Of a DNA stretch of 64,000 bases, positions 2,468 to 15,180 are shown one piece after another. A model generated the notes under the pieces. The model did no database searches. It had not been told where the DNA came from and worked only from the letters and a program-made list of their open reading frames with translations. Made by a program: the position numbers and the translations under genes. This DNA comes from Jiangella gansuensis DSM 44835 (GTDB lineage: Bacteria > Actinomycetota > Actinomycetes > Jiangellales > Jiangellaceae): the NCBI RefSeq assembly GCF_000515395.1, contig NZ_KI911782.1, positions 2,726,606-2,790,605 of the forward strand. Reading direction: 5' to 3'. Each line of letters starts with the position of its first letter. The first letter of the stretch is position 1.

Positions 2468-4900
2468 ATGGCTGCATCCACCACCAGGCGCCGCGCCGGC
2501 GTCCTGGTCTCGGCGGTGGCGGTACTCGCCGGTCTGCTGGGCGTGACGAACCCCGCGCAGGCCCTGGACGGCGGCTCGACCGCGGAGCCCGCCGGCCAGC
2601 CGGTCATCGAGGAGCTCGGCCCGGCGATCTTGTCGGTCAACGTCCGCAACGCGCACTTCGGCACGGTCGACGGGAGAGCCGTCGCGTACGCGATCTCCAA
2701 CGGCAACCCCGCGACGTTCAGCATGGTCGATGTGACGACCGGCGAGAGCCTGTTCGCGGCGGAGCTCGAGGACACCACCGTGGGCGGCTGGATCACCACG
2801 TCCCCGGACGGCACGGTCTACTTCACCGCCCGCCATCCGCGGCCGGCCGGCCTCTACTCGTTCGACCCGCGGACGCGCGACCTGGACGAGATCGCCGACG
2901 CCGTCGCGGGGGAGCGGGTGCTCTACGGCGGGAGCTTCACCGACGACGGCACGCTCGTCTTCGGCACCTACCCGAACGCGAAGGTCGTGTCGTACACGCC
3001 GTCGACGGGTGAGTTCCGCGACTACGGCAGCCAGACCGACGACGCGGACTACGTCTTCTCCCTCGGCATCGTCGACGGCGAGATCTGGGCCGGCACCGGT
3101 CCCGTCCCGTACCTGTATGCGATCGACCCGGACACCGGCGACCGGCGGGAGATCACCGTCCCGGATCACCTGATGACCAACACCCAGTGGTTCATCGGGA
3201 TCGAGCAGCGTGCGGGCTCGGTGCTCGTCCGGCTGTCACCGCGAGGGAACTACGACACGGCGGTGCTCGACCTGGCCACCGGCGAGTGGGACGACGAGGT
3301 CATCACCTCCGTGGGCGGGTCGGCGCCGACCCGGCTCGACGCGGCCGGCCGGACCTACGTCCTGGCCGGTGGGACCGACCTGATCGGCTACGACACCGGC
3401 ACCGGCGCAGTGGTGGAGACCGGCTTCGCCGGAACGGACGTCGCCGCCGCACTGGCCGCGCAGGTGAACACGTACGGCATCGACGTGATGACCCTGCCGG
3501 GGTCGGACGAGCAGAGCGTGGTGGGCCTCAGCACCGACGGTGACCTCTGGACGTACGGGCTGTCCAGCGGCGACGCGACCATCCAGCGGGCCGACATCGC
3601 GGCAACGCCGGCGGAGGCGCACGGGCTGGGGGTCGGGCCCGACGGCAACGCGTACATCGGCGCGTACCTGTCGAGCGGCTCCATGACCCGGGTCGACCAG
3701 GACACGCTCGAACTCACGCCGCTGCGCGGACCGAAGCAGGCCGATGCGATCGCCACGCACGGCGACCAGCTCGTCGTGACCTCGTATCCCGGGGCGGTCG
3801 TGCACGCGGGCGATCCGGCCGAAGCGTGGGAGTGGGGGACGAACCCCGCGCACGTGCTGACGATCGGCCGCGGCGAGCCGCACTTCCAGGACCGCATCAA
3901 CGGCGTGGTGTCGATCGGCGACCGGCTCGCCCTCGGCACCGTGCCGGACTACGGCCAGCTCGGCGGCGCGCTGACGCTCCTGGACACCGAGACAGGCGAG
4001 TACGAGGTGCATCGCGACGTGGTCGAGGACCAGAGCGTGATCTCGCTGGCGTACCGCGACGGTCTCGTCTACGGCGGTACGGCGATCAGCGGCGGCCTGT
4101 CGTCCACGCCCACCGCGGCACGCGCCCAGTTGTTCGTCTGGGACGTCGCCGCGGGTGAGGTCGTGTGGCAGGGCGACGTCACCGAAGGGGCGGGCTACGT
4201 GGCCGGGCTCAGCTGGGGGCCGGACGGGCTGCTGGTCGGCGGCACGTCCGACGGGGCGCTGTTCGAGTTCGACCCGCGGCGCCGCGAGGTCACCAGGACG
4301 GTCCAGGTGTTCCCCGCCGGCGACGGCAACCGGACGTCCTGGGGGTACGCCACGAAGACCCTCTGGGACGAGGCCACCGGCACGTACCTGACGACCAACA
4401 ACGGGCACCTGTACCAGGTGGACCGCGCGACGGGCACCGTGTCCGCGCTCGCCGAGATGGAGCAGGTCACCAGGGACGGTTCGGGCAACTACATCGCCGT
4501 CGACCAGACCCACGCGTACCGCATCGACCTGGAGCCGCTGGTGTGCGACCGCACCATCACCGGCCAGCACAGCGGCCCGGTGACCGTCACCGACGGCACC
4601 ATCTGCCTGTCCGGGGCCGAGGTCGACGGGCCGGTCCGCGTCCGCGGCGGTGCGTCGGTCGTCGTCGACGCCACCGAGCTCACCGGACCGTTCCATGCCA
4701 CCGGGGCGACCGACGTCATCGTCCGGAACAGCCGGGTGACCGGTCCGGTGTCGATCGTGGGGAGCACGGGCGACGTGGTCGTCAGCGGCACGACCGTCGT
4801 CGGCCCGCTGGACTGCTTCGACAACGACACCGAGCCCGACGACGAGGGTGTTCCGAACGACGTGCACGGTCCGACGGCCGGACAGTGCGCCGGCATGTGA
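2468..4900 (+). CDS. secreted beta-propeller protein with C-terminal beta-helix-like tail
   Basis: This 810-residue protein starts at an ATG preceded by GAAGGGAG and has a signal peptide with an RRR n-region, a hydrophobic stretch and an AQA cleavage site near residue 36. Residues ~45-690 form the same propeller as the upstream gene (shared YPNAK, WEWG, GTVPDYG, QSVISLAYRDGLVYGGT, AQLFVWD segments). Unlike that paralogue it has no CBM-like module, but it ends in ~115 residues beginning CDRTITGQHSGP in which GPV/GPL units recur every 15-20 residues, suggesting a small right-handed beta-helix, closing with GQCAGM. The gap to the upstream gene is 28 bp, so the two are probably co-transcribed. 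Known family function: none that I can name; export and glycan binding are inferred. Confidence 0.82.
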   Translation: MAASTTRRRAGVLVSAVAVLAGLLGVTNPAQALDGGSTAEPAGQPVIEELGPAILSVNVRNAHFGTVDGRAVAYAISNGNPATFSMVDVTTGESLFAAELEDTTVGGWITTSPDGTVYFTARHPRPAGLYSFDPRTRDLDEIADAVAGERVLYGGSFTDDGTLVFGTYPNAKVVSYTPSTGEFRDYGSQTDDADYVFSLGIVDGEIWAGTGPVPYLYAIDPDTGDRREITVPDHLMTNTQWFIGIEQRAGSVLVRLSPRGNYDTAVLDLATGEWDDEVITSVGGSAPTRLDAAGRTYVLAGGTDLIGYDTGTGAVVETGFAGTDVAAALAAQVNTYGIDVMTLPGSDEQSVVGLSTDGDLWTYGLSSGDATIQRADIAATPAEAHGLGVGPDGNAYIGAYLSSGSMTRVDQDTLELTPLRGPKQADAIATHGDQLVVTSYPGAVVHAGDPAEAWEWGTNPAHVLTIGRGEPHFQDRINGVVSIGDRLALGTVPDYGQLGGALTLLDTETGEYEVHRDVVEDQSVISLAYRDGLVYGGTAISGGLSSTPTAARAQLFVWDVAAGEVVWQGDVTEGAGYVAGLSWGPDGLLVGGTSDGALFEFDPRRREVTRTVQVFPAGDGNRTSWGYATKTLWDEATGTYLTTNNGHLYQVDRATGTVSALAEMEQVTRDGSGNYIAVDQTHAYRIDLEPLVCDRTITGQHSGPVTVTDGTICLSGAEVDGPVRVRGGASVVVDATELTGPFHATGATDVIVRNSRVTGPVSIVGSTGDVVVSGTTVVGPLDCFDNDTEPDDEGVPNDVHGPTAGQCAGM

Positions 4901-4912
4901 GGGAGCCGACGC

Positions 4913-5854
4913 GTGAATGACACCGACCAGGGGGATCCCGGCCGGGCCTGGTGGACCGGCTGGCTGGGCGCCGTCCCGGATCCCTCCGGCGGGTTCGAGG
5001 TGGGCGCCGCCGCGGCACGCGGCGGCGCCCGGCGGTGCCCGATCCGGCTGATGTCGTACGGCACCACCATCGAGGCCGTGCTGTTCGCGCCCGATGTCCC
5101 CGGCCCGCTGCCCGCGGTCGTCGTCCCCTTCTACGACGTCGGCAGCGTCTTCGGCGAACGGACCCCGCGCACCGAGGGCTGGACCGACGAACGGCGACGC
5201 GCCCGCGCCTACGGAAACCACCTGGTGGCCAGGGGTGTAGCGGTGCTCGCGGTGCCGTGGTGGTTCGAGCAGGTGGCCGACCGGGCCGCGTCGGCGACGT
5301 CACTGCACGAGCGGTACGGGCCGGCCGCGGCCAGGCATGAGGCGACCCTGCCGATGACCGGCCTCGGGCGGAGCCTGGGCGACCTGATGCTCGCCGTCGA
5401 CGCGTTGCTCTCGGTGCCGTGGGTCGATCCCGCTCGCGTCGGCGCGTTCGGGCACTCCCTCGGCGCCAAGCTGGCGCTGCACCTGGCCGCCCTGGACGTG
5501 CGGATCGGCGCGGCGGTCGCCCACGAGCCCGGCCTCGGGTTCGCCCACTCCAACTGGTCCGACCCGTGGTATCTGGGCACCCGGATCCCGGCCGGCCGCG
5601 ACCAGCACGAGCTCCTGGGCCTGATCGGCCGGCGACCGTTCCTGCTGGCCGGCGGGGGTGCCTCCGACGGCGGGCACAACGAGCACCTCGTGGAGCGAGC
5701 GCGGCTGGCGGGCGGCGCCGCCGGACTCGAGACGCTGTACCACGACAGCGGCCACGACCATCCGATCCATGTTCTCGTCGCCTGCTACGCGTGGCTCACG
5801 GCCCGTCTCGCCGCCGGCGACGCCCTACTGCCCGAGAGGAAGCCGTTCACATGA
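4913..5854 (+). CDS. alpha/beta hydrolase, dienelactone-hydrolase/acyl-esterase type
   Basis: A 313-residue cytoplasmic-looking protein (no signal peptide) starting at GTG 12 bp after the propeller stop, with GGGAG as ribosome site. The nucleophile elbow GHSLGAK puts the catalytic serine at about residue 182, and HDSGHDHPIH near residue 277-286 supplies the likely catalytic histidine. The N-terminal YGTTIEAVLFAPDVPGPLPAVV segment is the usual first strands of the fold. The order propeller-propeller-esterase-dehydrogenase suggests de-esterification of a sugar or lignin-derived compound released outside the cell; the substrate is inference. Its stop overlaps the next start (ATGA), so translation is coupled. 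Confidence 0.8.
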   Translation: MNDTDQGDPGRAWWTGWLGAVPDPSGGFEVGAAAARGGARRCPIRLMSYGTTIEAVLFAPDVPGPLPAVVVPFYDVGSVFGERTPRTEGWTDERRRARAYGNHLVARGVAVLAVPWWFEQVADRAASATSLHERYGPAAARHEATLPMTGLGRSLGDLMLAVDALLSVPWVDPARVGAFGHSLGAKLALHLAALDVRIGAAVAHEPGLGFAHSNWSDPWYLGTRIPAGRDQHELLGLIGRRPFLLAGGGASDGGHNEHLVERARLAGGAAGLETLYHDSGHDHPIHVLVACYAWLTARLAAGDALLPERKPFT

Positions 5855-6855
5855 CCGACCTGAAGGTCTACGTCGCGATCCGGCCCGATGAGTTCGACAC
5901 GCTCTACAGCCCGCAGGCGCAGGACCGGTTGCGTTCGCTGGCCGCGGTCGACGTCGCCGCCGGCGACGGCCGGGCCGTCCTGCCCGCCGACGTGGCGGCC
6001 GGCTACGACGTGATCGTCACCTCCTGGAGCACCGCGCCGTTCGATCCGCGGACCGTCCGCGGGCCGCGGCTGCGGCTGGCCGCCCACACCGCGGGCTCCG
6101 TTCGTGGCCTGTTCCCGCGGGCGATGCTCGAGAACGGCCTTCGGGTAACCCAGGGTGGCGCCGCGGCAATGGCGCCCGCGGTCGCCGAGCTGGCCGTGAC
6201 CCTGACGCTGGCGCTGCTTCGCAACCTGCACCGCCATGACCGGGAGCTGTGGACCAGCCGTGACTGGGCGACGGCTCGGCAGCCCGTGCTCGGCCGGTCC
6301 CTGGCGGAGCGCCGGGTCGGGGTCGTCGGGCTCAGCCGGGTCGGGTGGCGATACGTGTCGATGGTGCGTGGGCTGGGGGTCGAGACGGTGCACGCGTACG
6401 ACCCGTACGCCGACCCCACAGCCGCCGCGGACGCCGGCGTCGAGCTGGCCGGCCTGGACGACCTCTTCGCGACCTGCGACGTCGTGGCCGTCCACGCGCC
6501 GTCGACCGACGAGACCCGGCACCTGGTCGGGGCCCGGCAGCTGGCCGCGCTGGCCGACGGCTCGATCCTCGTCAACACCGCGCGGTCCTGGAGCGTGGAC
6601 CAGGATGCCCTGCTGCGTGAGGTCCGCTCCGGCCGCATCCTCGCCGGCCTCGACGTCTTCGACGAGGAACCGCTGCCCGCCGACAGCGGGTTCCTGGGCC
6701 TGCCCAACGTCATCGTCACCCCCCACGTGGCCGGCGGCACGGTCGAGGCGCGGCGCCAGCAGGGCGCCATCGTGGTCGACGAACTGGCCCGGTTCGCCGC
6801 CGGTGACGCCCTGCTGCACGAGGTGACCCTCGGCGCCTACGACCGGCTCGCCTGA
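5851..6855 (+). CDS. D-2-hydroxyacid dehydrogenase family, NAD(P)-binding
   Basis: The start is ATG 5851, overlapping the hydrolase stop by 4 bases; in-frame codons upstream are a shadow of the hydrolase. The 334 residues show the D-isomer-specific 2-hydroxyacid dehydrogenase layout: a flanking catalytic domain, then the Rossmann segment RRVGVVGLSRVGW (a GxSxxG variant of the usual GxGxxG), DPYAD as cofactor-specificity loop, SILVNTAR, GLDVFDEEPLP with the catalytic Glu, and TPHVAGGT with the catalytic His. The active-site Arg lies in the NTAR segment. The enzyme would reduce or oxidise a 2-keto/2-hydroxy acid, fitting sugar-acid catabolism. It is the last gene of the plus-strand operon and converges on the third propeller gene 19 bp downstream. 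Confidence 0.85.
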   Translation: MTDLKVYVAIRPDEFDTLYSPQAQDRLRSLAAVDVAAGDGRAVLPADVAAGYDVIVTSWSTAPFDPRTVRGPRLRLAAHTAGSVRGLFPRAMLENGLRVTQGGAAAMAPAVAELAVTLTLALLRNLHRHDRELWTSRDWATARQPVLGRSLAERRVGVVGLSRVGWRYVSMVRGLGVETVHAYDPYADPTAAADAGVELAGLDDLFATCDVVAVHAPSTDETRHLVGARQLAALADGSILVNTARSWSVDQDALLREVRSGRILAGLDVFDEEPLPADSGFLGLPNVIVTPHVAGGTVEARRQQGAIVVDELARFAAGDALLHEVTLGAYDRLA

Positions 6856-6874: not shown

Positions 6875-9800
6875 TCACAGGCCGGCGCACTGACCCGTGC
6901 GTGGGCCGGTGACGGTGTTCGGCGTTCCGTCGTCGGTGGGCGCCGGAACGTTCCCGGAACACGCGAGCGGGCCGGCGACGGTGTTGGAGCTCAGCACCGG
7001 AGGCTCGCTCGTGGCGTTGTCCGTGACCGACACCGGACCGCCGAGGCGGTTCCCGATGACGGTGACGGACGAGGTCGTGCCGGTGACGTCCACCGGTCCG
7101 AGGACGGTCGTGTCCGTCACGGTGAGCGACGCCGCGCCAACGGAACGGAGCGGACCGTCGAGCTGCGAGCCGGCGACGACGAGCGCCGCCCCCGCCCCGA
7201 CCGTGACCGGTCCGGTGACGGTGGCGTCGTCGACGCACGTGGTGCCGTCGGTGACGGTCAGGGGACCGTCGTGGGTGCCGGTGATCTCGTGGTCGCAGCG
7301 CACCGGGTCGGGAACGTCGTACTTGTACAGGTGGACACCGTGGGCGAAGAGAACGTCACCGTTGGCGTCGACGTTCGCGTAGTTGCCCACGCCGTTGACC
7401 AGCAGGGTGTATTCCATCGTGTCGGGGTCGATGCGGAACAGCGACGACCGGTTGGTGCCGTAGACGTTGCCGTCGGCGCCGGTCTTCAGGTAGGCGAACG
7501 CCCAGACGGTGCTGGAGCCGTACCGGGCGCGGAGTAGCTTCTCGGAGTAGACGATCTCCTCTGCGGCGGGGTCGTACTTGAACACGGTGTCCTCGGAGAC
7601 GCCCCAGATGAGCCCGTCCGGTCCGACCATCAGTCCGGTCACGCCCTCGTCGCCGGCCACCGGGACGAAGTCGTGCACCTTCTGGCCGGTGTCGGGGTCG
7701 AAGACGACGAAGTGCGCCTCGGTCTGCGTCGACGGGGGAGCGCCCAGCCCGCCGTCGAGCGTGGTCCCCACGTACAGCAGCCCGTCGTGGTACAGGACGG
7801 AGATCACCGACTGCTCCTCGACGATCTCGGTCGTGAAGACGGTCTTCGTGCTGGTGGCGAAGTCGTACATCGTGACCGCGCCTTGATGGGTGCCGTAGTA
7901 CGGGACCGTGCCCATGAAGACCCGATCGTTCGCCTCGTCGTAGTCCATCGCGAACGGGCGGTCCTGGTCCTCGGCCTTGAGGTCGAAGATCTGCCGCGGC
8001 GCCGCGCCGGTGGCCGGGTCGTACTCCATGAGCCGGCCGTTGCCGTAGGTGCCGAGCAGCATCTTCCCGTCCCGGACAGCCGACGACTCGTACTGGCCGG
8101 ATTGCAGGGTCGTGCCGATCTCGCCGGTGACCGAATCGAACGGGGTGAGTCCGACCATGTAGCCGGAGGCGTACATCGAGTCCGGCCCGGTGAGGATCTT
8201 CTGCACCGTCACCGGATTGGCGAAGTCGACCGTGTGCAGCTCGGAGCGGCCGGTGGTCGGGTTCATCAGCACGCTCCCGCCCTGGGTGGCGGCGAGCATG
8301 CTGTAGCCCGGCCACTCCGGGTCGTCGAGCTGGATCCAGCGGCTGTCGTTGAGATAGGTGTTCGTCTTGATGCCGAGGTCGCGCGTGGTCGCGGTGGCCG
8401 AGTCGTACTCCCAGAAGTTCGTCCCGAAGCCGAAGATGAACTTTCCTGGCGCGTCCGGCCGTGCCGATACGTGGTAGCCGAACGCCTCGCGGCCCTGGCC
8501 CTTCCAGTACTCGACCGTGTCGTCGGGCCGCAGCACGATCAGCTCGCTGGAGACGGTGCGGGCGAACAGCCGGTCACCGGTGAACGTGAACGTGTTGACG
8601 AACGTCTCGTCGAGGAAGCCGGGCGCGTTCTCCTCGGTGATCAGGGCGGTCTTCGTTCCGTCGGGCCCGAGCTTGTAGATCTGCGCCCGGGTCCCGCCCA
8701 CACCCACGTAGAGATTGTCGCGGTCGAAGTCGTATGCCAGGGCGCGGACGTAGGCCTGGGTCGGGTCGACCGCGCCGAGGTTGGTGATGGAGTCGTCGGC
8801 CGGGTCGTACAGATACAGATATCCCTTCGGATATGCGCCGATGTACATCGTGCCGTTCGGGCCGGCGGTCATCGTGATGGGGTAGCCGTCGCCCGGGCTG
8901 TCGGGGTTGATGTGGCCGAGATCGGTCACCTGCTTCGTGGCGGGGTCGTAGCGCCACAGCTTGTAGTCGTGGTTGGTGCCGATGTAGACCCTGCCGTCGG
9001 TGGCCTTCCTGATCTCGAAGTTCCCCTCGGCTCCGGCCAGCGGTAATGCGCGGATGACCTCGCCGGTGTTGGCGTCGGCGACGACGAGCGTGCACGGGTT
9101 GTCGGTGTCCGCGTGGCCCCGGTAGGCACCGTAGGTGACGGCCCTGCCGTCCTCCTCGCCGAGGACTGAGTTCGTGGTGATCTTGCTGGTGACCGGCGTG
9201 CCGAGGTGTGAGATCCGCGGGTTCTGCGCCACGACCTCCTCCGGCGTCGGGTTGGACAGCCGGGGCGGCTCGATCTCCCCGGCCGCCACCGACACGGTGT
9301 CCACGTGGCCGCTGCCCATGCCGGTGGTGGCGGCGTAGAGGACGACGGTGCCGGTGGCCGCGGCGTCGGGGGCGGTCGCGGAGACCGAGACCGGCACCCA
9401 GGAACCGTCCGTCTCCGGCTGCCAGGCGGACACGTTCGTGAGCCGGTTGCCGTCGGCGTCGTAGTAGCGCAGGTAGATCCCGAGGTCGTCGCGCTGGACG
9501 TTCATCATCGCCGCGGCCGTGTACGCGCGCCGGGGGTCCACCTCGAAGGGCGCGCTCTCCACGCCGACGGAGTAGGTGGCCGAGTCGTCGACGAGCGCCA
9601 GGCTGTGCGCGCCGTCGTGAGCGACGGCGTCCGTGACCTGGAAGGAGGTGCCTGGGCGGGCGGCCGCGAGGGGAGCCCAGCCCGGGATGCCGTCGTCGCC
9701 GGCGACCTCCTCGAAGGACGGGTTCACCAGGACGGGGTCGGGCGCGACGGCGTCGCGGGTCTGCGCGGCGGGCGCCGGCGCCGCCGCCGCGGCCAGCATC

Positions 9801-9892
9801 ATGGCGGCTGCGCCGGCCACGGCCGCCGGCATCGTCAAACGCCGCCGGATGGGCGTGCGGCGTGGATCTCGGTCGATGTGCGCGGTGATCAT
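6875..9892 (-). CDS. large secreted protein: CBM-like domain, beta-propeller and beta-helix-like tail
   Basis: The chosen start is ATG 9892 because AGGGAGG lies 5 bases upstream; a further upstream in-frame start would run into the operator pair. The 1005-residue product has a signal peptide (RRRLTMPAAVAGAAAMM... ending APAAQ), a jelly-roll-like module (NPSFEEVAGDDGIPGW to about residue 195), a ~650-residue propeller (YLYDPADDSITNLG, MGTVPYYG, EEQSVISVLYHDGLLYVGT) and the same C-terminal GPV-repeat tail as the 2468 gene (CDHEITGTHDGP to GQCAGL). It therefore combines modules that are split between the two plus-strand paralogues. Two LacI-type operators lie 68-95 bp upstream. Function unknown; secretion and glycan contact are inferred. 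Confidence 0.82.
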   Translation of the reverse strand: MITAHIDRDPRRTPIRRRLTMPAAVAGAAAMMLAAAAAPAPAAQTRDAVAPDPVLVNPSFEEVAGDDGIPGWAPLAAARPGTSFQVTDAVAHDGAHSLALVDDSATYSVGVESAPFEVDPRRAYTAAAMMNVQRDDLGIYLRYYDADGNRLTNVSAWQPETDGSWVPVSVSATAPDAAATGTVVLYAATTGMGSGHVDTVSVAAGEIEPPRLSNPTPEEVVAQNPRISHLGTPVTSKITTNSVLGEEDGRAVTYGAYRGHADTDNPCTLVVADANTGEVIRALPLAGAEGNFEIRKATDGRVYIGTNHDYKLWRYDPATKQVTDLGHINPDSPGDGYPITMTAGPNGTMYIGAYPKGYLYLYDPADDSITNLGAVDPTQAYVRALAYDFDRDNLYVGVGGTRAQIYKLGPDGTKTALITEENAPGFLDETFVNTFTFTGDRLFARTVSSELIVLRPDDTVEYWKGQGREAFGYHVSARPDAPGKFIFGFGTNFWEYDSATATTRDLGIKTNTYLNDSRWIQLDDPEWPGYSMLAATQGGSVLMNPTTGRSELHTVDFANPVTVQKILTGPDSMYASGYMVGLTPFDSVTGEIGTTLQSGQYESSAVRDGKMLLGTYGNGRLMEYDPATGAAPRQIFDLKAEDQDRPFAMDYDEANDRVFMGTVPYYGTHQGAVTMYDFATSTKTVFTTEIVEEQSVISVLYHDGLLYVGTTLDGGLGAPPSTQTEAHFVVFDPDTGQKVHDFVPVAGDEGVTGLMVGPDGLIWGVSEDTVFKYDPAAEEIVYSEKLLRARYGSSTVWAFAYLKTGADGNVYGTNRSSLFRIDPDTMEYTLLVNGVGNYANVDANGDVLFAHGVHLYKYDVPDPVRCDHEITGTHDGPLTVTDGTTCVDDATVTGPVTVGAGAALVVAGSQLDGPLRSVGAASLTVTDTTVLGPVDVTGTTSSVTVIGNRLGGPVSVTDNATSEPPVLSSNTVAGPLACSGNVPAPTDDGTPNTVTGPRTGQCAGL

Positions 9893-9959: not shown

Positions 9960-9987
9960 TGCAACCGGTGGCATGCAAGCGGTTGCA
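9960..9987. promoter_or_regulatory. tandem LacI-family operators upstream of the third propeller gene
   Basis: Two abutting 14-mers fit the LacI-family consensus TGnAAnCGnTnnCA: TGCAACCGGTGGCA (9960-9973) and TGCAAGCGGTTGCA (9974-9987), the second a perfect 5-bp-arm palindrome. A similar site lies at 14115, next to a LacI-family gene. A further inverted repeat, GGTTGC-AG-GCAACC, covers 9981-9994. The pair sits where a promoter for the gene starting at 9892 would be. Confidence 0.72.
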
Positions 9988-10016
9988 GGCAACCTAGTGG
10001 CGCCCTCCGGGCGCCG

Positions 10017-11516
10017 TCAAGGGTGTGTCACTGCCCCCGATGCCGGGATCAGGTCGAAATCGACGGTGAAGGTGTAGCCCCACGGCAGACGCGCGCCGGA
10101 CACGGTCCAGGCGGCCAGGGCATCGACCCCGCCGGCCCAGGTGCCGAGGTCACGGGTGATCCGCTCGTGGACCGCGGGGAGTTCGTCGAGCGGAGGATCG
10201 AGCAGGCCACGCTCGCGCGCCTCGTCCTGGATGCGGCGGCGCACGACGGGGAGGTAGTGCCCGTCCTCGACGATCTTGCGGGCGAGGAACCGCCGGCGCT
10301 CGGCCGCGGCGGCCGGGGCATCGCACAGCCGCGCGGACACGCCGGCCGCCAGCGTGGTGCCGATCGTGTTGCCCGCGGTGTTCCACCCTCCGTATGCGGC
10401 GAGCCGGCCCAGCAGGCCCCGGCTGTCCAGGAGCTCGACCAGGCGCGGGTCGCCGCCGTTGGCGTAGTGGACGTCGGCCAGGGCCACCGGGCGACCGGCG
10501 GCCAGCAACCGCTCCACCTCGTCGGCCACAGGACCCGGAGGGGACCCGGCGGCGAGGTCCGGCGGGTTCGACACCCAGTCGCCGGGAGCGGCCGCCGGCG
10601 GATGGACCACGAGCACCAGGTCGGCCTCGTCCGGCTCGCTCACCTGGACGCCGCCCACCGCCCGGATCTGGTTGGCCAGGCCCACGCGAACCGGTCGATC
10701 CTCGTACGGCGCGATGCGGTCGAGGCCGGCCACCTCCGGGCACACGACGGCGACTCGCGGGCGGACCCCGGCAGCCTCGGCCGCGACCCGGGCGACCAGG
10801 ACGCTCGGCACCTCGTCGGCACCCGGATACATCAGCACGGGCACGCCGAGCCGGTCGGCCCACTGGCCGAGCAGCCGCCGTTCCGCCGCCGGGAGACCAC
10901 GCGGGGCGGTGTCGTCGGACGAGATCACGAGCGTGTCGAACACGCCGTCGGCGGCCAGGTCGAGGGCCGCCAGATTGACGACGTGGTTGCGGTTGCGACG
11001 CTTGACCATGTCGCGGACATACCCGTCGGGCACCTGAGCGCGAGCCGCGGCGACCGCGTCCGGCTCGGCCTCGCCGAGCGACGCCTCGTCCCAGAGCCGG
11101 GACAGCGTTCCCAACCGCTCTCCGTGGGTGGCCCAGTACGCCGGCTCCTGGCGCGAGCGTCCCGGGTTGTCGTACGTGGGCAGCCGGGTCACGACGCTGT
11201 ACGCCGTGACCGGGACGCCGAGATCGCGCAGCGCGTCGAGCCGGGCGACGACGTCGGCCATCCGGTCGTCGGTGTTGCGGGACGGGATCAGGCCGCCGTG
11301 GGCGAGCAGCTCCAGTGATACGACCAGGTGGTCCACGTCGGCGGCGACCTCCCGCAGCCAGCCGGCCAGGGCCGCGGTGTCCGCGGGTGTCCGGAACGAC
11401 GGCATCGCCTCGTCCGGCGGCGTCAGGACGTCGACGCCCGCGCAGCGGCCGATCGTCACCGCGTAGCCGCGGGTGTTCGGTCGTTCGTCAGGTGGGAGCA
11501 GGGCGATACGCATCAC
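10017..11516 (-). CDS. DUF4127 family protein
   Basis: This 499-residue protein (GTG 11516; ATG 11513 is an equally possible start, both behind GAGAGG) matches what is known of DUF4127: the N-terminal LLPPDERPNTRGY signature, HLVVSLELLAHGGLIPSRN, VTAYSVVTRLPTYD, VKRRNRNHVVNLAALDL, and an AYGGWNTAGNTIGTTLA segment in the second half. Family length is about 500 residues, so it looks complete. No biochemical role is established for DUF4127 that I can name; conserved Asp/Glu/Arg/Asn clusters suggest an enzyme active site. It follows the enolase-superfamily gene by 34 bp and is probably in the LacI-controlled epimerase operon, which gives a rare contextual clue to its job. Confidence 0.82.
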   Translation of the reverse strand: MMRIALLPPDERPNTRGYAVTIGRCAGVDVLTPPDEAMPSFRTPADTAALAGWLREVAADVDHLVVSLELLAHGGLIPSRNTDDRMADVVARLDALRDLGVPVTAYSVVTRLPTYDNPGRSRQEPAYWATHGERLGTLSRLWDEASLGEAEPDAVAAARAQVPDGYVRDMVKRRNRNHVVNLAALDLAADGVFDTLVISSDDTAPRGLPAAERRLLGQWADRLGVPVLMYPGADEVPSVLVARVAAEAAGVRPRVAVVCPEVAGLDRIAPYEDRPVRVGLANQIRAVGGVQVSEPDEADLVLVVHPPAAAPGDWVSNPPDLAAGSPPGPVADEVERLLAAGRPVALADVHYANGGDPRLVELLDSRGLLGRLAAYGGWNTAGNTIGTTLAAGVSARLCDAPAAAAERRRFLARKIVEDGHYLPVVRRRIQDEARERGLLDPPLDELPAVHERITRDLGTWAGGVDALAAWTVSGARLPWGYTFTVDFDLIPASGAVTHP

Positions 11517-11550
11517 GGGGCGACCTCTCGCTAGCGGGATGGGCAGCGTC

Positions 11551-12876
11551 TCAGTAGAGACCGGGCTGCGACGGAGGCGGCACCGTCACCCCGCCGTCGC
11601 GGACGGTCGTCAGATCCGGCCAGACGCCGCCGAGCGCCTGGTTGGCCGCCGGCGCGTACTGGCGGCTGTTGTACTCCAGGTGGGGCGAGGGCAGGTCGAG
11701 CAGGCTGACCAGGCGGGCGGAGTGGACGAACGCCAGGTCCACGGCGGTGAGGTCCTGCACGGTCACGTAGAGCCCCGCCGCCTTCGCGACGGCATGGGCG
11801 AGCAGGGCAGCGCTGTGGCCTTTGCCGGCCTTGATGGCCACACCACTCCAGCCGCGCTCCCGCAGACCGTGGACGGCGCGCGGATCGACCAACCCCTCGT
11901 CCATGACGACCGGGGCGAGGCGTCCGACGCGGGTGAGGCCGTCCGGGTCCGGCGTGGCGTCCCGCGGCACCGGCTGCTCGACGTAGGCGAGCGCTCGGCG
12001 TGCGGCCGGGGCGGATCGCTCGAGCACATCGAGCAGCCGGAACACGTCGGCCGCGCTCTCATACCCCTCGTTGGGATCGACGGCGAGGGCGACATCGACC
12101 CCCAGGCCATGGCCCAGCCGCCAGACAGCCTCGATGCGCCGGGCGTCGTCGTCCACGTCCGCCCCGCGTACCTTGACCTTCAGGTGACGTACGCCGTCCG
12201 CGCCGAGCCACTCGCGCAGCGAGCGCTCGCCGTCGGCGGTCTCCGCCGGCTCCAGCGGGTCGCCCACGCCGACCACGTGCTGGACCGGCACCCGCGACCG
12301 CGCCGGCACGAGGAAGTCGCCCGGCCAGCGTCCGCTCATCCGGCCGCCGGACACCACGCCGAGGTCGTCGTGCAGGTAGCGGCCCGTGTACATCGTGTGT
12401 GCCGGCCGGCCCGCCGCCCGGGCCCAGCCGTCGTGGACGGCGTTGTCCACGGCGCCGAGTGCCAGGAGCGCGGCCAGGGACGGAACCGGATCGACGCCAC
12501 CGGCTGCCGCGGCGACCTTCGCGGCGGTCTCGGCCAGGGTGGCGTGGGCGTCGAGCCACCGCCGGATCGGGTCGGACGGCGGCGCCGCGCACGCGTCGTC
12601 CGCCAGCCGCGCCGTCAGCGCGCGCAGTACCTGGTCGCGCCGCTCGACGGAGAGTTCGGAGCGCGGCCATGCCCACGGCACCGACAGGATCGTCGCGCCC
12701 CGGCCGGACGCGACGGTCCCGAGCCGGTCGCGCACGTCGACCTCGACCACGGCCATCGTGAACCACGCGATGGTCCGGCCGCTGATCGCGAACGGGCGGC
12801 CGAGCTCGATGGGGGAGAACGTCACCCGCGCGTCGAGCACGTCGACATCGGTGTCGAGCCGCCGCGTGCCGGTCAC
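11551..12876 (-). CDS. enolase-superfamily (mandelate racemase/muconate lactonizing type) enzyme
   Basis: The start is GTG 12876, overlapping the epimerase stop in GTGA; residues before it would be a shadow of that gene. The 441-residue product has an N-terminal capping-type domain followed by a barrel with the expected pieces in order: LKVKV (catalytic Lys on strand 2, near residue 230), VALAVDPNEGY and YVEQPV and VMDEGLVDP (the three metal-binding acidic residues), then AIKAGKGHS and VTVQDLT near the end. Such enzymes abstract a proton alpha to a carboxylate, so a sugar-acid dehydratase or epimerase is likely, matching the dehydrogenase across the locus. The precise subgroup cannot be set without alignment. 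Confidence 0.78.
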   Translation of the reverse strand: MTGTRRLDTDVDVLDARVTFSPIELGRPFAISGRTIAWFTMAVVEVDVRDRLGTVASGRGATILSVPWAWPRSELSVERRDQVLRALTARLADDACAAPPSDPIRRWLDAHATLAETAAKVAAAAGGVDPVPSLAALLALGAVDNAVHDGWARAAGRPAHTMYTGRYLHDDLGVVSGGRMSGRWPGDFLVPARSRVPVQHVVGVGDPLEPAETADGERSLREWLGADGVRHLKVKVRGADVDDDARRIEAVWRLGHGLGVDVALAVDPNEGYESAADVFRLLDVLERSAPAARRALAYVEQPVPRDATPDPDGLTRVGRLAPVVMDEGLVDPRAVHGLRERGWSGVAIKAGKGHSAALLAHAVAKAAGLYVTVQDLTAVDLAFVHSARLVSLLDLPSPHLEYNSRQYAPAANQALGGVWPDLTTVRDGGVTVPPPSQPGLY

Positions 12877-14099
12877 GGCTCGGCCTCCAGCTCGACCAGC
12901 TGCATGAGGTTGCGGGCGATGTGGAACGGGTCCTTCACCGGCAGCGCCACGACCTCGTCGAGCGGCCGGCCCGCCCGGTCCCGGATCTGGATCCACTCGG
13001 TGCCGTCGCCGCGACCCGGGAAGGTGTCGATCGTGTAGGCCCAGATGCGTTCGAACCAGGCGGCGGCGGTCTCACTGCCGTATCGGCGGGCCGCCAGTGC
13101 CGTCGTGTAGGCGGCCTCGGTGTGCACCCACCAGAGCTTGGTGTCCCAAGTACGCAGCACGAGCTGCTCGTACGGGGTGCCGTGGTCCCGGCCGCGCGGC
13201 GCACTCGCACCGTCGCGGTCCGCGTATCGGACCAGCCCGCCGTGCGTCTCGTCCCAGGCCGAAGAACAGAGCGGGCCGACACTGGCCAGCAGGTCCTCGA
13301 CGACGTCGTGGCGGTCGAGCAGCATGGTCGTGTGCAGCGCCACCCACAGGCCCTCGAGCGCGTGTCCGGGCACCCGGTGCCGAGCCACGAGGGTGTCGTC
13401 CTCGCCGGCGTCGAGCGGACGCATCTCCACGAACGTGCCGTCGGTGAGCCGGTGGGCGAGGACGGTCTCGAGAGCCGCGGAGAGCCGGTCACGATCCGGC
13501 GCCCGCAGCCGGCCGAGCCGCTCGAGCGCCTCCGCGTGCACCAGGAGGGTGTTGAGGAGGATCATGCGGGGACCGAAGGCCACGAAGCCCGCCGGGACGT
13601 CGTACGGCGGCGTCGGGGCAGTGCCGTCCGAGATCTCGCGATCGGCCCGCGCGAGTATCGGCTCGGCGAGCTCCAGCCAGTGCCCTTCGCCCGTCGTGGC
13701 GGCCAGTTCGGCCAGGCCCATGACCACGAAGCAGTCGGCGTAGACGCTGCGGGTCTCCCCGTTCGGCCCGGCCGACGGGGCGCCGTCGGTGGTGGTGACG
13801 AAATGGCAGGTCCCGTCGTCGCGGATGGCGTGCTTGGCGAGGAAGTCCGCGCCCGCGCGAGCGTGACCGACGAGAGCGTGCGGGTCGGCGCCGAGCAGGC
13901 CGCGGTCGGCCAGCCGGGCGGCCCGGGCGAGCAGCCAGACGAAGCGGCCCTGCGACCAGGTGTACTTGTCCGTCGACACGAGCGTGCGGCCACGGTTGTC
14001 GAAACAGGTGTGGAATCCGCCGTGCGCCGAGTCGATTCCGCGCTCCAGCCAGAACGGGAGGATGACCGTCTCGAGCTCACGCCGCGCCGTGGTTCGCAT
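12873..14099 (-). CDS. AGE-family sugar epimerase/isomerase
   Basis: ATG 14099 is preferred over the upstream in-frame ATG 14135 because AGAGGGA lies just before it and the longer version would translate through the operator. The 408-residue sequence has the alternating helices of an (alpha/alpha)6 barrel of the N-acylglucosamine 2-epimerase family: FWLERGIDSAHGGFHTCFD at the N-terminus, KYTWSQGRFVWLLARAA, a HALEGLWVALH segment and KLWWVHTEA near the end, which carry the Arg/His residues used for proton transfer. Members interconvert aldoses and ketoses or epimerise C2 (mannose isomerase, cellobiose 2-epimerase). It heads the minus-strand operon (epimerase, enolase-superfamily enzyme, DUF4127) and has a LacI operator 16-29 bp before its start. 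Confidence 0.83.
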   Translation of the reverse strand: MRTTARRELETVILPFWLERGIDSAHGGFHTCFDNRGRTLVSTDKYTWSQGRFVWLLARAARLADRGLLGADPHALVGHARAGADFLAKHAIRDDGTCHFVTTTDGAPSAGPNGETRSVYADCFVVMGLAELAATTGEGHWLELAEPILARADREISDGTAPTPPYDVPAGFVAFGPRMILLNTLLVHAEALERLGRLRAPDRDRLSAALETVLAHRLTDGTFVEMRPLDAGEDDTLVARHRVPGHALEGLWVALHTTMLLDRHDVVEDLLASVGPLCSSAWDETHGGLVRYADRDGASAPRGRDHGTPYEQLVLRTWDTKLWWVHTEAAYTTALAARRYGSETAAAWFERIWAYTIDTFPGRGDGTEWIQIRDRAGRPLDEVVALPVKDPFHIARNLMQLVELEAEP

Positions 14100-14114
14100 C
14101 GTCTTCCCTCTGGT

Positions 14115-14128
14115 CGCAATCGCTTGCA
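14115..14128. promoter_or_regulatory. LacI-family operator between the epimerase operon and the repressor gene
   Basis: CGCAATCGCTTGCA (TGCAAGCGATTGCG on the other strand) fits the same 14-bp consensus as the pair at 9960-9987. It lies in the 70-bp divergent gap between the epimerase start (14099) and the repressor start (14170), so one bound repressor could control both the operon and its own synthesis. Confidence 0.7.
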
Positions 14129-14169: not shown

Positions 14170-15180
14170 GTGGCAGGAGATCGGCCGAAGCGGGTGACGA
14201 TCTATTCGATCGCCCGGGAATGCGGCGTGTCGGCGTCGACCGTGTCGCGGGCGTTCACTCGCCCGGAGATCGTCAACGACGACGTGCGCGAGAAGATCCA
14301 CGCCGTGGCCAGGCGTCTGGGGTACCAGCCGAACAAGGCGGCCCGGGGGCTCGCCACCGGCCGGGCCGGCATGATCGGCCTGCTCGTGCCGGACATCACG
14401 AACCCGTTCTTCCCCCCGCTCGTCCGGTCCATCCAGCAGGCGGCCTCGGTGGCCGACTGGTCGGTGCTGCTGGTCGACGCCGACGAGGTCGCCGCGGAGG
14501 AGACGGAACTCGTCGAGCAGGTCAGGAGCCAGGTCGACGGGTTGATCGTCGCCTCGCCGCGTTCGACGGACGCTGACCTGGAGACGACGCTCGGGGACAT
14601 CCCGACCGTGGTCATCAACCGGGTCGTCCCCGGCCGGCCGAGCGTCGTCTGCGACAACACGACGGCGCTGACCGCCGCCGGGCAGCACCTGCGAGAACTC
14701 GGTCATCGGCGGTTCGCGCTGCTGAAGGGGCCGGAGGCGTCGTGGGCGGCTCGGCAGCGATCCGAGGCGATCCGTCAGTGGGCCGCCGACGCCGAGGTCG
14801 ACCTCGTCGAGTCGGGCGACTTCGCCGCGTCGTACGACGGCGGACGCGAGGCGTCGCGCGCGTTCCTGGACAGCGACGCCACCGCGGCGTTCGCGTTCGA
14901 CGACCTCATGGCCTGCGGCGTCCTCGCCGGGCTGGTCGAGGCCGGCAGCTCCGTGCCGGACGACCGCAGCCTGGTCGGGTGCGACGACGTCCTCCTGGCC
15001 CGAACGGTCACGCCCAGCCTCACCACGGTCACCGCGCCGGTCGGTGCTCTCGGCGCGGCAGCCATCGACCTGCTGCGCGAGGCCATCGGTGGCGAGCCCG
15101 CACGCGAGCTGCGCCTCGACGGCACGCTGACATTGCGCGCATCGACGGGCACGGTCCCGGTGGGCGCCGTCCGGGCGTGA
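14170..15180 (+). CDS. LacI/GalR-family transcriptional repressor
   Basis: A 336-residue regulator from GTG 14170 behind GGGGAGGAGAG. Residues ~8-60 are the LacI helix-turn-helix and hinge: TIYSIARECGVSASTVSRAF, then ARRLGYQPNKAARGLATGR. The rest is a periplasmic-binding-protein-like effector domain (IGLLVPDITNPFFPPLVR, RRFALLKGPEASWAARQR, AFAFDDLMACGVLAGL, VGCDDVLLARTVTPSLTTV). Family members are usually released from DNA by a sugar or sugar phosphate. It is divergent from the epimerase operon; the 14-bp sites at 14115 and 9960/9974 are its likely targets. The effector cannot be told from sequence. Confidence 0.92.
   Translation: MAGDRPKRVTIYSIARECGVSASTVSRAFTRPEIVNDDVREKIHAVARRLGYQPNKAARGLATGRAGMIGLLVPDITNPFFPPLVRSIQQAASVADWSVLLVDADEVAAEETELVEQVRSQVDGLIVASPRSTDADLETTLGDIPTVVINRVVPGRPSVVCDNTTALTAAGQHLRELGHRRFALLKGPEASWAARQRSEAIRQWAADAEVDLVESGDFAASYDGGREASRAFLDSDATAAFAFDDLMACGVLAGLVEAGSSVPDDRSLVGCDDVLLARTVTPSLTTVTAPVGALGAAAIDLLREAIGGEPARELRLDGTLTLRASTGTVPVGAVRA

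Follow-up and report, generated by a model that had tools for sequence, protein, structure and literature searches.

LacI-family control of N-acetylglucosamine use is exemplified by the LacI-type NagR of Gammaproteobacteria. Local sugar regulons under LacI-family proteins are well known in general, and the relevant sections of Ravcheev et al. (2014, PMC4052901) describe even palindromes with a central CG, autoregulation and the control of transport and catabolic genes, with most sites lying 140 to 30 bp upstream of starts. Control of nagA-nagB in an actinobacterium is likewise described, in sections of PMC4746261, for Bifidobacterium, whose NagR belongs to the ROK family. Here we analysed a LacI-type regulator and its putative operators in the soil actinobacterium Jiangella gansuensis DSM 44835. 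The genome is a single contig of 5,585,780 bases, and the window (the whole stretch of 64,000 nucleotides analysed) corresponds to genome positions 2726606-2790605. The window covers the right part of a 28-kb gene block (genome 2713662-2741785). A LacI-family, autoregulated, substrate-induced local regulon would explain the operators of this block, a reading to which we assign a probability of roughly 0.92, and we consider it very probable that such a local control circuit exists.

The block resembles the LacI local regulons of PMC4052901, as far as those sections describe them, in its even palindrome with a central CG, in its apparent autoregulation and in the kinds of genes controlled, transport and catabolic. 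It differs from them in combining seven operators with about 20 genes in a single stretch, in containing four propeller-type proteins, a DUF4127 protein and four Gfo/Idh/MocA enzymes, and in the position of one operator (15 bp) and several in relatives, which lie less than 30 bp from starts. Its regulator is LacI-type, unlike the NagR of Bifidobacterium. The general type of regulon is already well known, and it is the breadth, together with the uncharacterised genes brought together, that is uncommon. Searches of a library of open-access papers found no paper for the motif string or for the name DUF4127, and none on such a regulon, judged by title, for Jiangella and LacI.

An earlier note on this DNA had proposed three operators in the window, and all three exist at the positions it gave, here without strand and with distances counted from site to start codon. 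The site TGCAACCGGTGGCA at 9960-9973 (genome 2736565) directly abuts TGCAAGCGGTTGCA at 9974-9987 (genome 2736579), 67 and 81 bp upstream of propeller gene 3. The site CGCAATCGCTTGCA at 14115-14128 (genome 2740720) lies, as the note had placed it, between the repressor and the epimerase operon, 15 bp upstream of the AGE start and 41 bp upstream of the LacI start. The fit of these sites to the note's consensus TGnAAnCGnTnnCA needs correction at the third site, which is one base off on either strand and not on one strand only; a pattern search of the window gave no exact match there. With respect to the stricter pattern TGCAANCGNTTGCA, the second site is perfect and the other two have one mismatch each.

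We then scanned the whole genome. The loose pattern TGnAAnCGnTnnCA has three strand-matches in the window (0.06 expected), and genome-wide it occurs at 18 places, six of them inside the block, with 23 strand-matches versus 22 for the reversed control pattern. It is therefore not specific by itself, and we rejected it as an operator definition. The pattern TGCAANCGNTTGCA has five perfect occurrences in 5.59 Mb, all within 22.9 kb (genome 2713662-2736592), a span that overlaps the window; by a rough estimate, five out of five random sites would fall into so short a span with a probability of about 1e-9. The earlier note had taken a 14-mer common throughout the genome as an argument against its regulon, and this argument does hold for the loose form, with its 18 places, but not for the tight form, whose five places are all in the block. 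Allowing one mismatch gives 11 places, seven of them in the block (the five perfect sites, 2736565 and 2740720). Allowing two gives 63, against 275 for the reversed control, and in the window three against 0.92 expected, which is not special there. Because of the 63 places, only the perfect and one-mismatch classes were used.

A search for the LacI protein among 22 genomes of the family found 12 orthologues including its own, the other 11 having 57-84% identity, followed by a gap to 43%. At least five more orthologues exist in the named genome collection, in Kribbella pittospori, a Microbacterium and a Georgenia metagenome-assembled genome, and two Nonomuraea. The 17 orthologues form one clade with a support of 100/100 in a tree of 47 proteins that also includes 30 selected paralogues. 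Each of the 12 family genomes with an orthologue has between two and nine perfect sites (53 in total over whole genomes). Nine of the ten family genomes lacking an orthologue, two of which are incomplete assemblies (75% and 81%), have no perfect site, and the tenth has a single site beside its own LacI paralogue. The co-occurrence of sites and repressor among the 22 genomes is significant when phylogeny is ignored (Fisher p 1.5e-6), and the reversed pattern is found at 12 places over the same genomes. Four genomes of the genus, including the own one, carry the repressor, and their 21 perfect sites are all found within the 39 kb upstream of lacI; genomes of other genera have several perfect sites on contigs other than that of lacI. 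Outside the family, the exact site is found in the Kribbella, Microbacterium and Georgenia orthologue loci, and a one-base variant in the two Nonomuraea.

The sites are also enriched around the repressor gene. The 346 kb around the LacI of 11 relatives contain 19 perfect sites and 32 sites with at most one mismatch, where a first-order Markov model expects 0.0 and 0.4. Fifty-nine control palindromes of the same letters have no perfect match in these 346 kb and, with at most one mismatch, a mean of 0.54 and a maximum of 7. In hand counts within 10 kb, the five named orthologue loci contain perfect sites in three cases and sites with at most one mismatch in all five, compared with one and eight, respectively, of 75 named loci of paralogues (LacI at 43% or less). 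Of 18 paralogue loci of about 4 kb from family genomes, also counted by hand, two and three have such sites, respectively.

The strongest evidence is that the same operator precedes the same genes in different layouts, which argues for a regulon and not a local accident. We examined 59 perfect sites, namely 51 of the 53 in the family and eight from the named orthologue loci. Fifty-six of them fall in an interval that runs from 300 bp upstream of a homologue of a regulon gene (at least 100 bits) to 30 bp inside it; such intervals make up 11.5% of the sequence in the fetched regions. All 22 one-mismatch sites also lie in such intervals. The gene list comprised the 20 cluster proteins and seven added ones (two NagA-like, SIS, ceramidase-like, DUF4838, a second DHDPS and mannitol-dehydrogenase-like), the latter partly picked for their closeness to sites. 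One perfect site (Microbacterium 1231) is counted through the added genes only, as are three one-mismatch sites (G002:C83 3750 and two Nonomuraea sites at 11007). On other contigs, the Gfo3-Gfo4 pair has a site in front of it in seven loci; further genes with such a site are Gfo2, HADH (followed by an enolase-superfamily gene), propeller genes and NagB-NagA.

Several observations weigh against the proposed regulon. Three perfect sites (G014 1406578, G018:C8 161375 and G020:C11 61265) have no recognised regulon gene downstream, and two more outside the 59 examined (G017:C1 597500 and G018:C5 181521) adjoin other LacI genes. One of the counted perfect sites (G017:C34) depends on a homologue of only 31%. 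In every one of the four carriers from the genus, the site between the AGE and LacI genes is one base off the consensus, which may make autoregulation weak. NagA is absent from the own block; two NagA genes above the cut-off, plus two weaker ones, are elsewhere in the genome. Finally, a LacI paralogue of 42% identity has near-identical sites nearby, TGCAAGCGATTGTC in its own genome and TGCAAGCGGTTGTG in relatives, and cross-talk is therefore possible.

This paralogue bears on the explanation that survives best besides the local regulon, namely that another LacI-family protein of the same genome is the main binder or that two paralogues share the sites. The genome encodes five more LacI proteins at E values of 1e-40 or less, the sites next to the paralogue at 3454383 have nearly the same half-site, and the related site TGCAAGCGGTTGTG lies upstream of nagB2 in six of eight loci examined. 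But perfect sites track the orthologue of the adjacent LacI and not the paralogue, and perfect TGCAANCGNTTGCA sites are missing from three genus-mates (G010, G011 and G013) in which the paralogue occurs with nagA2. We thus regard such an arrangement as improbable.

The paralogue belongs to a second amino-sugar cluster (genome 3454383-3460530; L158, L160, L178-L184), where it occurs with nagB2-nagA2. The six loci with TGCAAGCGGTTGTG in its promoter are all from the same genus, three of them from genomes without the LacI of the block, while the own copy is TGCAATCGCGTGCA; the half-site is almost that of the regulon described here. We considered nagB2-nagA2 (near 3458450-3460500) as a further target of the LacI of the block, with the site at 3460515 having one mismatch, and assigned it instead to the nearby paralogue. 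If control by the LacI of the block were true, it would tie a NagA to the regulon.

A global catabolite regulator of the CcpA type, with the sites as its cre boxes, is highly improbable. The cre consensus resembles the loose consensus TGnAAnCGnTnnCA of the earlier note, which fits it, and the repressor scores 175.5 bits against the NCBIfam ccpA model (TIGR01481). This score is far below the cut-off of 442.35 and does not support CcpA orthology, the perfect sites are limited to one block rather than spread genome-wide, and nine of the ten family genomes without this LacI lack them. Chance palindromes or local repeats without a regulatory role, for which one could cite two imperfect sites among the three in the window and a two-mismatch window count near expectation, are in effect refuted by the excess over the Markov expectation in the relatives' LacI loci, by the joint presence or absence of sites and repressor over the family genomes and by the same genes being preceded by the same sites across different arrangements and contigs.

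With these alternatives weighed, we return to the local LacI regulon and its promoters. Operators in the block lie 15 to 86 bp upstream of the start codons. Two operators of the own genome, those of SDR and propeller 1, are flanked by hexamers 17 bp apart (TTGGCT-N17-TATCCT and TTGACG-N17-TACGGT). We counted promoter features over 53 site orientations of 45 distinct, hand-picked sites. A TAnnnT hexamer is present at -24 to -6 of the operator in 31 of the 53, compared with 13 in the downstream mirror window, 11 for the reversed hexamer and 1.6% at random places. A stretch resembling a ribosome-binding site, followed by a start codon, occurs within 40 bp after the operator in 22 orientations. 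A -35 box at a fixed place immediately upstream of every operator was also considered and rejected, being found 4-10 bp upstream in 13 of the 53 orientations only (3.2% at random places). As the TAnnnT hexamer is commoner than this box, we claim no more than an apparent overlap of the operators with the core promoter or start.

We propose that the LacI protein (14170-15180) acts as a local, autoregulated repressor, a dimer of which would bind TGCAANCGNTTGCA, mostly in the form TGCAACCG[CA]TTGCA, at seven operators. In a simple reading, the bound repressor would cover the promoter or start and thereby obstruct RNA polymerase. The substrate or a metabolite of it would then bind the sugar-binding domain and release the repressor, and the release would jointly induce eight transcription units of about 20 genes, encoding propeller-type proteins, a transporter and catabolic enzymes.

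To describe the block as a whole, we added and annotated 30 kb upstream of the window. The seven operators lie in five intergenic regions and face eight predicted transcription units, the operons being deduced from gene spacing and overlaps. The leftmost operator (genome 2713662) is 43 bp upstream of SDR - DHDPS-like - NagB-like. The next (genome 2718562) lies between two divergent Gfo/Idh/MocA pairs, at distances of 49 and 86 bp; it sits within a longer palindrome, TTGACCTGCAACCGATTGCAGGTCAA (genome 2718556-2718581; L020:6951-6976), which puts TTGACC next to the operator on each strand. The operator at genome 2726344 is 30 bp upstream of a divergent transporter operon (solute-binding protein, two permeases and a propeller-type protein), and that at 2726467 is 50 bp upstream of propeller 1 - propeller 2 - esterase - 2-hydroxyacid dehydrogenase. 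The abutting pair at 2736565 and 2736579 precedes propeller 3, and the last operator (2740720) precedes AGE - enolase-superfamily - DUF4127 and, divergently, lacI. The form TGCAACCGCTTGCA, with a central CG and a TGCAA half-site, is a putative operator form of this regulon. The earlier note had suggested looking for sites before the plus-strand operon whose promoter is missing from the window, and two perfect copies (2726467 and 2726344) are indeed just upstream of it. Its idea of a local regulon joining a secreted protein and intracellular enzymes under one LacI gains support from the repressor co-occurrence and the conserved sites, and the regulon appears larger than it had seen, with seven sites instead of three.

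The abutting pair recurs in the identical 14-bp register, with centres 14 bp apart, in G014, G012 and G005, making four species altogether. Two dimers may not fit simultaneously on abutting sites, so these two may serve to double the target and not to bind dimers cooperatively. In the same three genomes, AGCAATCGCTTGCA occupies the intergenic position between AGE and LacI, where the operator at 14115-14128 is presumed to be autoregulatory.

The genes of the proposed regulon are those for the four propeller-type proteins, a sugar ABC transporter, four Gfo/Idh/MocA dehydrogenases, an SDR, a DHDPS-like and a NagB-like protein, an esterase, a 2-hydroxyacid dehydrogenase, a DUF4127, an enolase-superfamily and an AGE-like protein, and the repressor itself. 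On the plus strand of the window are propeller-type protein 1 with CBM_4_9 (1-2439; the gene starts 75 bp before the window, at genome 2726531), propeller-type protein 2 (2468-4900), an esterase-like alpha/beta hydrolase of the AXE1/DLH type (4913-5854; PF05448, 8.8e-6) and a D-2-hydroxyacid dehydrogenase (5851-6855; PF02826, 4e-49). On the minus strand follow propeller-type protein 3 (6875-9892), with a signal-peptide-like N-terminus, a CBM_4_9-like region below the Pfam cut-off (E 2.1e-4) and 30% identity to protein 2, the DUF4127 protein (10017-11513; PF13552, 3.2e-120), the enolase-superfamily (MR_MLE_C) protein with an ambiguous start codon (11551-12879; PF13378, 3.1e-14) and the AGE-family N-acylglucosamine 2-epimerase-like protein (12873-14099; PF07221, 4.2e-22; PDB 1fp3, 5.5e-34). 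The LacI-family repressor, of 336 amino acids, is again on the plus strand (14170-15180; Pfam LacI 4.6e-13, Peripla_BP_3 2.9e-28). The regulon gives functional company to the little-annotated DUF4127 protein, propeller-type proteins and four sugar dehydrogenases, and opens their role to testing, since all of them should be induced by growth on the right glycan.

We then investigated the repressor and its recognition code. The protein has the LacI/GalR architecture of an N-terminal helix-turn-helix and a periplasmic-binding-like sugar domain, with 49.2 bits for PF00356 (cut-off 27) and 99.5 bits for PF13377 (cut-off 26.5). None of 18 listed NCBIfam models for named LacI equivalogs scored above its cut-off, the best being NF047341 (214.1 bits versus 382). 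The recognition helix is VSASTVSRA and the hinge is AARGLATGR. According to the pertinent sections of Camas et al. (PMC2978694), arginine at position 20 of the TVSR class corresponds to G at NT-6, a hinge leucine to a central CG, and residues 15 and 16 to NT-5 and NT-4. By this rule, the TVSR helix with arginine and the hinge leucine of the repressor are expected with an NT-6 G and a central CG. The sites have G at position 2 in 80 of 81 cases and a CG centre in all 81, counts that add little because the search pattern, drawn from the sites of the earlier note, fixes these letters with one mismatch allowed. Residues 15 and 16 of the orthologues are AS, SS, GS or AA, and NT-5/NT-4 is CA. In the Nonomuraea proteins, which have AA and a V at hinge position 55, one half-site is altered to TGAAA. 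The Microbacterium protein, likewise AA, retains TGCAA, and residues 15 and 16 alone therefore do not explain the Nonomuraea change. Among the paralogue loci compared, many paralogues with AS but a different residue at 55 have no such site nearby.

A sister LacI clade in the family of Jiangella (L036 and L044), which forms a sister branch in the tree, shares the half-site TGCAA. Its helix is VSISTVSRA and its sites are TGCAAGCGCTTGCA, in which the centre is flanked by G on both strands. In the regions fetched for the clade described here, by contrast, 58 of 59 perfect sites carry a C next to the centre on one strand or both. The two clades differ at recognition-helix position 15 and at the base beside CG. 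They are thus a natural case of LacI specificity, in which the sister clade, with Ile at position 15 and TGCAAGCGCTTGCA, is a natural test case for the base beside the central CG.

The substrate is presumably a glycan or oligosaccharide, and somewhat probably one with an N-acetylated amino sugar, because of the AGE-like and NagB-like genes and the NagA-like genes in the loci of relatives. The NagB-like protein matches PDB 2ri0 (1e-26) and scores 94.9 bits versus the TIGR00502 cut-off of 236.9. NagA-like proteins in the loci of three relatives score 175, 203.8 and 211 bits versus a cut-off of 225.65, and further homologues are also present. Within 10 kb, the Nonomuraea loci contain only NagB-, AGE- and LacI-like members of the cluster, one AGE match being a short piece. 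Three same-genus relatives (L175, L176 and L177) have a NagA-like gene directly behind NagB in the SDR-DHDPS-NagB operon; at that place in the own genome (L020:4979-5040) only about 60 bp follow NagB.

The model of propeller protein 2 has a predicted local distance difference test score (pLDDT) of 82.8 and matches seven-bladed propellers (VIA Z 30.1 to YncE, root-mean-square deviation 2.5, 281 residues aligned). This supports a propeller fold and points to no single function. The other three propeller-type proteins are named by homology to protein 2 (30-40% identity). The propeller-type proteins look secreted, given their signal-peptide-like N-termini and the CBM_4_9 matches in two of them. 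For the DUF4127 model (pLDDT 80.0), TM-scores are at most 0.31 among the 50 Foldseek matches listed, and the best VIA match is to a ribose-binding protein (Z 9.6 over 131 residues, root-mean-square deviation 4.2).

A more specific picture, which we hold only tentatively at slightly under even odds, is a catabolic regulon of Actinomycetota, not described before, for the use of an N-acetylamino-sugar glycan. The propeller-type proteins, as secreted proteins, and the DUF4127 protein would capture this glycan or act on it, and its breakdown would be oxidative and non-standard, via the four Gfo/Idh/MocA dehydrogenases, the SDR, the DHDPS-like protein and NagB/NagA-like enzymes. A single LacI clade with its own operator would tie these genes together, including in genomes where they are dispersed on several contigs.

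Outside the block, a one-mismatch site at 4283737 (L023:3238) has the sequence TGCAACCGGTGGCA and lies about 174 bp upstream of a DUF4838 gene. It is the sole other TGCAACCGGTGGCA among the pattern matches of the genome, and a DHDPS-family gene is located further away on its opposite side. The one-mismatch sites at 2423393 and 2452755 are AACGTT-centred, and the latter adjoins a LacI paralogue. A two-mismatch site, TGTAATCGCTCGCA (genome 2697356; L019:751), is about 180 bp upstream of an RraA-like gene, which belongs to a further sugar cluster with a solute-binding protein, a permease-like protein, GH4 and BadF-type ATPases.

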